Shown here one piece after another: positions 1-46,493 of a stretch of 49,076 nucleotides of DNA. The position numbers and the translations under genes are program-made. The stretch is from an uncultured Oscillospiraceae bacterium (lineage in GTDB: Bacteria; Bacillota; Clostridia; Oscillospirales; Oscillospiraceae), in contig CANRMY010000014.1 of assembly GCA_947631845.1 (NCBI GenBank), positions 1-49,076 of the forward strand, in the 5' to 3' direction. Numbering within the stretch: the stretch's first letter is position 1; each line of letters opens with the position of its first letter. The notes under the pieces were generated by a model. The model did no database searches. It was not told the origin of the DNA and worked only from the letters and a program-made list of their open reading frames with translations.

Positions 1-76
1 CGCAAAATTCATAGAAAATTACCCGCACGTTCCCCTTGTCGGAAAAAGCCCGTCAGGGCTTTTTCGACAGTCTCAA
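1..76 (-). repeat. E1 structured repeat, copy A (cut by window edge)
   Basis: Read on the minus strand, this starts with the hairpin GAAAAAGCC / GGCTTTTTC and continues into the conserved block AAGGGGAACGTGCGGG. It then enters the left arm of a long hairpin, ending at the TGCG loop where the window stops. The same order of parts is seen at 35246-35417 (plus) and 45141-45316 (minus). The copy follows the terminator of the membrane-protein gene at 128-703, in the same orientation as that gene. Function is unknown. Confidence 0.75.
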
Positions 77-80
77 AAAA

Positions 81-108
81 GCTCCCGGATCTCTCCGGGA
101 GCTTTTTT
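81..108 (-). terminator. Rho-independent terminator (bidirectional)
   Basis: A GC-rich stem (GCTCCCGGA with TCCGGGAGC, 4-nt loop) at 81-102 is flanked by an A-run and a T-run, so it can act on either strand. It lies about 20 bp past the stop codon of the minus-strand gene at 128-703 and probably ends the whole 128-5188 minus-strand run. Confidence 0.85.
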
Positions 109-35202: not shown

Positions 35203-35220
35203 AAAAATCGACAACAAAAA

Positions 35221-35240
35221 AGAGCGCCGCAGGGCGCTCT
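35221..35240 (+). terminator. Hairpin after metG
   Basis: A perfect 8-bp stem AGAGCGCC/GGCGCTCT with a 4-nt loop is preceded by an A-run. There is little T-run on the plus strand, so termination may rely on the next hairpin (35251-35274), which belongs to E1. Confidence 0.55.
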
Positions 35241-35245
35241 TGAGA

Positions 35246-35417
35246 CTGTCGAAAAAGCCTTGACAGGCTTTTTCCGGCAAGGGGAACGTGCGGGTAATTT
35301 TCTTTGAATTTTGCGAAATTCAAAGAAAATTACCCTGCTGTCGCCCTGCGCGCACGCAGAGCGCACACTTGGGCGACAATAGGAATTTTTTCCGACGTAC
35401 ATGCCGCCGGAAAAAAT
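35246..35417 (+). repeat. E1 structured repeat, copy B (complete)
   Basis: Parts in order: P1 hairpin GAAAAAGCC/GGCTTTTTC (35251-35274); the conserved AAGGGGAACGTGCGGG; P2, a 20-bp perfect stem with a TGCG loop (35292-35135+200, that is 35292-35335); CTGCT; P3 GTCGCCC/GGGCGAC (35340-35377) holding an inner stem; and P4 ATTTTTTCCG/CGGAAAAAAT (35385-35417) with the invariant 13-nt loop ACGTACATGCCGC. It follows metG in the same orientation. No ORF is present. Confidence 0.8.
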
Positions 35418-35454
35418 ATAAGAAAATAAATTAGGTTTTGTCAATACTCTGAAG

Positions 35455-45140: not shown

Positions 45141-45316
45141 ATATTTTTTCGGCGGCATGTACGTCGAAAAAAATCCCTTTTGTTTTGCGCAGTGTATGGC
45201 CCTCCGGGCCATGCGCGGAGCAAAACAGCAGGGGAAATACTCTGAATTTCGCAAAATTCAGAGTATTTTCCCGCACGTTCCCCTATCATTAAAAGGGCGT
45301 CAGCCCTTTTAATGAT
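45141..45316 (-). repeat. E1 structured repeat, copy C
   Basis: On the minus strand: P1 is a 14-bp perfect stem (45303-45316 with 45285-45298) that includes the last codons and stop of purH. Then come AGGGGAACGTGCGGG, P2 (AAATACTCTGAATTT with its complement around TGCG), CTGCT, P3 GTTTTGC/GCAAAAC with an inner ATGGCC/GGCCAT stem, and P4 TTTTTTCG/CGAAAAAA with the same 13-nt loop as copy B. Arms differ from copy B by paired changes. Confidence 0.8.
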
Positions 45317-46493
45317 GAAAGAGTCTCATGCCGGTGAAGGCCATAGCCATATTGTATTTATTTGCCACTTCGATCACATTGTCGTCTCTCACGGAGCCGC
45401 CCGGCTCGGCCACATATTTCACGCCGCTCTTGTGGGCCCGCTCCACGTTGTCCCCGAAGGGGAAGAAGGCGTCGGAGCCCAGGGAGACGTCGGTGACCGT
45501 GTCAAGGTATTCCCGCTGCTCCTCGGCGGAGAAATACTGGGGCTGCTGGGTAAAATAGCGCTGCCAGACGCCGTCGGCGGTGACGTCCTCCTCGTTGTGG
45601 TTGATAAAGCCGTCGATGACGTTGTCCCGGTCGGCGCGGCCCAGGCCCTTCAGGAAGGGCAGCTCCAGCACCCGCTGGGACTGGCGCAGATGCCAGGTGT
45701 CGGCCTTGCCGCCGGCCAGGCGGGTGCAGTGGATGCGGCTCTGCTGGCCGGCGCCCACGCCGATGGCCTGACCATCGGCGGCGTAGCAGACGGAGTTGGA
45801 CTGGGTGTACTTGAGGGTGATGAGGGAGACCACCAGATCCCGCTTGGCGAAGTCCGGGATGTCCTTATTCTCCGTCACCACGTTGTTCAGAAGCGCGTAG
45901 TCGATCTTGAAGTCGTTGCGGCCCTGGGAGAAGGTGACGCCGAAGACCTCCTTGGTCTCCTCGTGCTCCGGTACATACTTTTCGTCGATCTTTACCACGT
46001 TATACCCGCCCTTTTTCTTGGCGGAGAGGATCTCCAGGGCCTCGGGGGTGTAACCGGGGGCGATGACGCCGTCGCTGACCTCCCGCTTGATGATTTTAGC
46101 GGTGGTGACGTCGCAGATATCCGAAAGGGCGATCCAGTCGCCGAAGGAGCTCATGCGGTCCGTTCCTCTGGCTCTGGCGTAGGCGCAGGCCAGGGGGGAG
46201 TCGTCCAGGCCCTGGATGTCCCGGACGAAGCAGGCGGCCTTCTGGGTGTCGGAGAGCTTCAGGCCGATGGCGGCCCCAGCGGGGGACACGTGCTTGAAGC
46301 TGGCGGCGGCGGGGAGGCCCAGCTCCCGCTTCAGCTCCCGCACCAGCTGCCAGGAGTTGAGGGCGTCCAGGAAGTTGATGTAGCCGGGGCGGCCGTTCAG
46401 AACCTGGATAGGAAGCTGGGCGCCCGAGCGCATATAGATCTTTGAAGGCTTCTGGTTGGGGTTGCAGCCGTATTTCAGTTCAAATTCAGTCAT
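45309..46493 (-). CDS. purH: AICAR transformylase (PurH without cyclohydrolase domain)
   Basis: 394 residues covering only the transformylase half of PurH. GCNPNQKP near the N-terminus and ASFKHVSPAGAA near 65-76 carry the catalytic Lys-His. The N-terminal MGS-like IMP cyclohydrolase domain of standard PurH (about 200 residues) is absent; that activity is encoded by the gene just upstream. It adds a formyl group from 10-formyl-THF to AICAR. ATG 46493 has GAGG 6 nt upstream, 8 bp after the preceding stop; an earlier GTG lacks a site. Confidence 0.92.
   Translation of the reverse strand: MTEFELKYGCNPNQKPSKIYMRSGAQLPIQVLNGRPGYINFLDALNSWQLVRELKRELGLPAAASFKHVSPAGAAIGLKLSDTQKAACFVRDIQGLDDSPLACAYARARGTDRMSSFGDWIALSDICDVTTAKIIKREVSDGVIAPGYTPEALEILSAKKKGGYNVVKIDEKYVPEHEETKEVFGVTFSQGRNDFKIDYALLNNVVTENKDIPDFAKRDLVVSLITLKYTQSNSVCYAADGQAIGVGAGQQSRIHCTRLAGGKADTWHLRQSQRVLELPFLKGLGRADRDNVIDGFINHNEEDVTADGVWQRYFTQQPQYFSAEEQREYLDTVTDVSLGSDAFFPFGDNVERAHKSGVKYVAEPGGSVRDDNVIEVANKYNMAMAFTGMRLFHH

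Follow-up and report, generated by a model that had tools for sequence, protein, structure and literature searches.

The window analysed here is the whole of one contig (G000:C14; 49,076 nucleotides) of the 2.59-Mb draft genome of an uncultured Oscillospiraceae bacterium, and it harbours three copies of a structured element, E1, one behind the metG terminator, one between purH and purD and one at the contig end (Table 1). An initial annotation made from the sequence alone had proposed copies at 1-76, 35246-35417 and 45141-45316, and covariance-model matches agree with these places: copy A matched at 35246-35419 on the plus strand (194.3 bits), copy B at 45141-45317 on the minus strand (152.3 bits) and copy C, cut by the contig end, at 1-70 on the minus strand (64.6 bits). 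The location given for copy A was right while its extent was drawn too short: the element begins at 35242, ends near 35452 and carries terminal repeats beyond P1 and P4. E1 is about 209 bp long and oriented copies span GAGACTGTCG to TTTTTTGACAAGCTGA. In copy B the right terminal repeat is absent and the stems contain few mismatches.

Table 1. Features of the E1 copies and their flanks in the window.
Feature	Position	Strand	Basis or remark
E1 copy C	1..74	-	Partial, cut by contig end
Terminator hairpin at left end of copy C	75..108	-	
metG terminator hairpin, left surviving copy of the target	35220..35241	+	Terminator scan; metG by NCBIfam
E1 copy A	35242..35452	+	Left terminal repeat GAGACTGTCG through degenerate right repeat TTTTGTCAATACTCTGA
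P1 hairpin	35247..35279		Takes in part of the left terminal repeat
Conserved unpaired spacer AGGGGAACGT	35280..35289		Alignment
P2 hairpin, TGCG loop, bulged T	35290..35338		
P3 hairpin, conserved internal loop TGCGCG / ACACTTG, replaceable inner hairpin	35339..35378		
P4 hairpin, loop YRCATGY	35385..35417		
Promoter-like TTGACA-N18-TATATT, 11/12, reads into P4	35415..35444	-	Promoter scan; top score among copies
E1 copy B	45141..45317	-	purH-purD spacer; P1 overlaps purH stop codon

Abundance and variants of E1

E1 was read at 47 places in its own genome, where 40 of 87 BLAST candidates were scored. The covariance model gave 75 matches in this genome, a number that is not a copy count because palindromic copies match on the reverse strand too, as seen in the window. 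Model matches were obtained in 31 of the 34 genomes of the genus, with at least 60 matches in 16 of them when the best 81 candidates per genome were scored; all such per-genome counts refer to the best 81, 18 or 12 candidates and include reverse-strand matches to the same palindromes. A pattern scan of named genomes yielded at least 80 loci, and among those listed 79 were from uncultured Oscillospiraceae and one from Lachnospiraceae, all of them 'Lapin' isolates. One exact E1 pattern was absent from the viral contigs searched, and no match to a purD fragment came from a scan of viral contigs.

Several contig ends (among C15, C30, C33, C48, C68, C71, C77, C79 and position 1-74 of the window) lie inside E1 or an IS1182 element, so copies may be absent from the draft assembly. 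The hairpin next to copy C also flanks the right end of the E1 copy at the end of contig C77 (L009), and the window and C77 therefore probably adjoin through copy C. Mini-derivatives of about 83-110 nt with P1 and P4 only were observed at L027:1734-1816, L047:546-651 and L293:1410-1492, one of them beside a full copy. In some E1 copies the inner P3 hairpin is longer by roughly 100 bases; at L146:1433-1711, L155:6418-6693, L176:1442-1719, L138:1809-2082, L158:7539-7816 (inverted), L291:1233-1507, L043 and L046 this is an insert of ~105 nt (CGTCGTCGC...CTCTCCCC[hairpin]GGGGACCCC) which looks like an independent nested mobile element.

Conserved hairpins and covariation

By eye P1 is terminator-like in both directions, and the terminator scan lists an overlapping site on the plus strand only. 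The loops had been described as invariant; they are strongly conserved, yet strict invariance fails. The block GGGGAACGTGCGGG, for which the same had been said, is common, with 26 exact matches in its own genome and variants elsewhere such as GGGGAACGAGCGGG in L016, and the supposed 13-nt loop of P4 proved to be a loop of 7 nt (YRCATGY) closed by a paired stem.

The claim of covarying stems was borne out by three sets of copies, in all of which the covariation score was far above shuffles. For 37 copies of the own genome (37 of 40 rows; L006, L007 and L010 left out) the structure was read from the alignment and the alignment was not fitted to the model. Here 93.3% of the cells were paired, 32 of 63 pairs were changed on both sides and the covariation score was 0.198, against 0.068 in shuffles and 0.027-0.067 with slid partners; none of 500 shuffles reached any of five measures. 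A larger alignment of 103 distinct copies, from the own genome, the sister species and pattern-fetched contigs, had 94.4% paired cells, two-sided changes in 56 of 61 pairs and a score of 0.322 against 0.088 in shuffles, and leans towards the structure because it was fitted to the model. For the purH-purD copies of nine species the corresponding values were 96.8%, 30 of 61 pairs and 0.460 against 0.135. By parsimony on a tree of 90 of 106 rows, 258 paired events led from one Watson-Crick pair to another. Conservation of unpaired columns was no lower than that of stems (majority frequency 0.892 vs 0.856), and among the purH-purD orthologs their identity was 0.782 as against 0.716 in stems. The best explanation is that the E1 body is a separately conserved multi-hairpin module, consisting of P3-P4 together with P1, P2 or P5 depending on the lineage, and constrained as a folded single strand.

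Terminal repeats and the IS1182-family partner

The terminal repeats of E1 match an IS1182 element of the same genome, imperfectly at the left end and exactly at the right end in four copies (L009, L027, L028 and L042), which share the IS end TTTTTTGACAGACTG. In this genome the partner is represented by fragments, the four PF05598 matches all lying in fragments at or near contig ends, whereas complete copies of 1496-1510 bp with repeats like CAGTCTGTCAAAAAACC come from four sister species. The 474-aa transposase at L054 belongs to IS1182 by NCBIfam (380.7 bits vs a cut-off of 270). Direct-repeat length is variable in IS1182. A second IS1182-family lineage, 45% identical, is present in the genus (L058:1474-3078 and L059:1474-3051) with ends like CAGTCTGTCGACAAACC, and it also begins directly after a hairpin (AAACCACTCGTTAAACGAGTGGTT in L058).

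Insertion at terminator hairpins

Copy A joins at the 3' foot of the metG terminator hairpin. The sister species G002 (L309) has the same metG terminator with the element absent, a match that covers one junction only because the right hairpin of copy A has been lost. Behind the corresponding metG terminator of G018 an E1 copy lies in the opposite orientation. metG was found in 30 of 34 genomes, and E1 adjoins it in 3 of the 30 loci examined.

Comparison of the left and right flanks of each copy revealed duplication (score of at least 14) in 18 of 41 copies of the own genome and in 0 of 1681 mismatched pairs; the remaining 23 copies had no flank duplication of this score. The test drew on 42 copies with usable boundaries, 41 of them with both flanks; excluded were L041, which covers the region of L027, the two partial copies L045 and L048, and also L043, L046 and L047. 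In nearly all cases what is repeated is an entire terminator-like hairpin that is peculiar to its locus, and the length of the duplication tracks that of the palindrome (Pearson 0.886, Spearman 0.913; n = 17, 18-36 bp). This correlation covers 17 of 19 duplications, L031, with a duplication of 84 bp and no simple hairpin, and L034, with half a hairpin, being left out; short or half-hairpin repeats are found at L005, L030, L033, L034 and L037. All four complete IS copies of the sister species sit between exact hairpin copies, of 21, 23, 31 and 31 bp. Among further loci, 58 of 61 of which had enough flank, 10 lie between two hairpin copies (eight in other genera, two in the own genus) compared with 3 of 3306 mismatched pairs. 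These loci display insertion at palindromic targets, as is the case in some IS1182-family members. Scores against the seed profile were higher for copies with a duplication (mean 213.5 bits, n = 19) than for those without (188.5 bits, n = 22), as expected if old copies lose one terminator.

A mobile structured repeat had been one of the two readings offered initially, and it is upheld by the IS1182-like ends, the IS1182 partner in the same genome, the duplicated terminator hairpins and the element-free terminator in a sister species. E1 has itself the marks of a MITE, being short, multi-copy and without a transposase gene. We estimate a probability of roughly 80% for the overall reading, in which E1 is a non-autonomous MITE of the IS1182 family that is mobilised in trans, as we infer from these sequence comparisons, by the IS1182-family DDE transposase of the same genomes.

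Gene context and the purH-purD copies

Neighbouring genes, which were called mechanically from a codon model, both point in the plus direction in 20 of 44 copies. Where the neighbours form a co-directional pair, copies were plus-oriented 20 to 5 overall, 13 to 0 without a duplication and 7 to 5 with one (Fisher p = 0.015). This bias fits with selection after insertion, numbers being small and the gene calls mechanical.

purH was found in all 34 genomes, 30 of which were fetched and 4 left out. By the R1 model, the purH-purD spacers of these 30 loci contained a full E1 in nine, while one further spacer had a P5-type copy and another a remnant. In none of the nine E1 copies does a right terminal repeat occur within 75 bases, and their left ends are variable. 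The spacer of G024 (L295:1332-1507) holds a P5-type element with a duplicated P4-P5-tail unit. A copy that is common to several species and has lost its right end while keeping a compensated structure suggests, as we infer, some domestication; apparent vertical retention at this site could, however, also result from gene conversion among copies.

Relatives in other genera

Relatives of E1 are present outside the genus. Model R1 matched 16 of 147 genomes of the order (two of them from the own genus), in 8 of 85 genera at E 1e-4, and its matches include families f7, f13 and f3. In the alignments examined these relatives keep P1, P3 and P4, P2 is missing or replaced by another hairpin, and most finish with one more hairpin (P5) plus the tail ACTCTGCGAGG. 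A second model, R2, built from 24 relatives in other genera and no copy from the genus, detected the two full copies in the window with scores of 61.2 and 40.5 bits, which constitutes reciprocal homology. In a class-wide search with stricter filters and the best 12 candidates scored per genome, R2 reached E 1e-5 in 2 of 245 genomes, namely its own and that of G049, a member of the same family, with no match beyond the order. RNAalifold applied to the other-genera alignment recovered P4 and P5 and did not recover P3. The P4 loop, and partly the P3 internal loop, persist in other genera despite diverged stems. The own genome contains a P5-type copy between atpG and atpD, and at L115:1292-1622 a P5-type element lies 12 bases after a 6S RNA gene.

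Strand asymmetry of the stems

On the strand chosen in the initial annotation, stem mismatches were A·C in 234 cells and G·T in 52, and parsimony on the 90-copy tree gave 113 A·C against 40 G·T events (p = 3e-9), with the same direction in all five helix groups. Since transitions in 50 unpaired columns were balanced (90 vs 87), mutation bias is an unlikely source of the asymmetry. A·C on this strand is G·U on its complement, which favours the minus strand as the folded one. At the third P4 pair from the loop, the 56 copies from other genera comprise 25 with A-T, 31 with A·C and none with G·T, and the purH-purD orthologs had 14 A·C and 3 G·T. The minus strand had the lower predicted energy in all 37 own sequences, in 21 of 24 from other genera and in 9 of 9 from purH-purD. 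One P3 pair is reversed, with 9 G·T and no A·C; counted pair by pair the strands split 25 to 15; and the other-genera alignment without the P4 A·C pair has 14 A·C against 20 G·T, some of which are perhaps misalignment. From these counts the complement is the likely folded strand, as RNA or as single-stranded DNA. A 3'-UTR RNA, the other initial reading, fits in position, since 33 of the 42 copies for which a left gene was called lie behind a co-directional gene, but the wobble asymmetry disfavours such an RNA on the sense strand. The initial annotation had captured a real and strongly covarying element, without its ends and probably on the wrong strand.

Discussion

Duplication of whole hairpins is best accounted for by a transposase that selects terminator hairpins by their shape. 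The target hairpin would probably be extruded as a cruciform and the element joined, on each strand, to the 5' foot of the hairpin. Joining at both 5' feet would make the stagger equal to the whole palindrome, gap repair would then leave a complete terminator on either side, and with a complete terminator on both sides the insertion would be cheap for the host. A mode of transposition that seeks terminators yet keeps them would account for the tolerance of dozens of copies next to housekeeping genes, and natural insertions allow the duplication length to be read against the hairpin length. That the IS1182 relatives studied here cut both feet of a cruciform, the shape of the target setting the length of the duplication, is put forward tentatively and jointly with a reading of the conserved core: across this order of gut bacteria the core may represent a new and strand-specific class of functional nucleic acid, either RNA from the antisense strand or single-stranded DNA, in which the P3 and P4 loops are conserved. 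It is possible, and equally tentative, that terminator-targeting transposition took this core from gene to gene and that the host then retained it in operons, among them purH-purD (nine species) and perhaps atpG-atpD (one genome). Mobile copies can here be compared with old fixed ones to ask how a selfish structure becomes part of its host.

If E1 were primarily a gene for a small structured minus-strand RNA, starting near P4, ending at the P1 terminator and hitchhiking on IS1182-type ends, the wobble asymmetry and the minus-strand stability in all three sets of sequences would be accommodated, as would TTGACA-N18-TATATT upstream of P4 in copy A. At this promoter place 33 of 103 copies score at least 9/12 where about 6 are expected, but most of these scores stem from one inherited terminal sequence, TTGTCA-N16-TATTTT, which forms part of the terminal repeat and which copy B lacks (6/12). 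The promoter-like sequence was for that reason not counted as evidence of a gene. With the -10 box kept almost outside P4, promoter scores were not above shuffles that kept base composition only, so that a conserved minus-strand promoter is not seen beyond the inherited terminal repeat. Moreover, a minus-strand RNA would be antisense in the 20 of 44 copies with both neighbours in the plus direction, and we consider an RNA gene of this kind unlikely.

The compensated stems might also stem from hairpin-templated mutation, by quasi-palindrome correction or gene conversion, instead of structural selection. Quasi-palindrome correction perfects palindromes, and the 258 exchanges of one Watson-Crick pair for another fit frequent templated repair. 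It is nevertheless quite improbable as the explanation, given that conservation outside the stems equals or exceeds that within them, in the copies at large and in the purH-purD orthologs, and that the P4 loop and partly the P3 internal loop outlast the divergence of the stems, which templated correction alone does not predict. Dispersed, palindromic, intergenic repeats that often occupy 3' regions are familiar as REP, BIME and ERIC sequences. E1 resembles them in being dispersed, palindromic and situated mostly after genes, and two Y1 matches in the own genome (37.2 and 25.1 bits, cut-off 23) would allow for a repeat of the REP/BIME type with a Y1 (RAYT) transposase as its mover. It differs from them in its ends and in its mover: 4 of 10 carrier genomes, all drafts, have no Y1 match (G157, G143, G063 and G081), G063 and G081 having at least 18 element matches each, and both the ends and the duplications are typical of a DDE element, the duplicated hairpins contradicting a RAYT. 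A RAYT as the mover of E1 was accordingly rejected as highly implausible.

The Rfam 15 covariance models gave no match in the window; the best sub-threshold score was 25.6 bits vs a threshold of 60. In 16 other-genera loci they gave no match to the element, the 6S and ssnA matches of L115 lying beyond it and MIR814 in L116 staying below threshold. In the open-access literature searched, subscription papers being mostly outside the scope, there was no description of E1 or of whole-hairpin duplication as something actually observed. The statement that no described family matches is thus sound for Rfam 15 and the open-access literature searched and fails in that E1 belongs to a known kind. E1 represents a large family of covarying elements from poorly studied gut bacteria, undescribed in the literature searched.

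The closest comparison is with IS1272 and TnSha1, staphylococcal members of the IS1182 family which, as parts of two papers relate, target hairpins without a sequence consensus (PMC5678879, PMC4923244). In what we draw from the latter paper, several of the target hairpins are confirmed transcription terminators and both orientations at one target are reported (Furi 2016, PMC4923244), and a passage of the former places some older copies at non-palindromic sites (Wan 2017, PMC5678879). The elements reported here share the transposase family and the targeting of hairpins with these. The passages on IS1272 and TnSha1, however, describe removal of part or all of the hairpin and no target duplication (PMC5678879, PMC4923244), whereas E1 and its IS often duplicate it. 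Stem-loop replacement of the IS1272 type does not describe the 18 of 41 E1 copies and the four of four complete IS copies that carry duplications, nearly all of whole hairpins, a comparison that covers the duplication-bearing copies. E1 and the IS elements resemble instead a hypothetical branch drawn by Wan et al., where the element is joined to the 5' feet and the entire stem-loop is thereby duplicated (legend of Fig. 13, pathway b; PMC5678879).

Short non-autonomous elements assigned to an IS1182 member are also known from Methanosarcina acetivorans, where MITEs that are partners of ISMac2 measure 160 and 169 bp and have direct repeats of 4 and 0 bp (PMC3852290). E1 is like them in being short, non-autonomous and assigned to the IS1182 family. 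It is unlike them in its duplications and in its terminator targeting and its covarying body, neither of the last two being described for the ISMac2 partners in the portion of that paper on which the comparison is based (PMC3852290). The most fitting place for E1 is among the IS1182-family MITEs, where both its treatment of the target and its conserved body are unusual.
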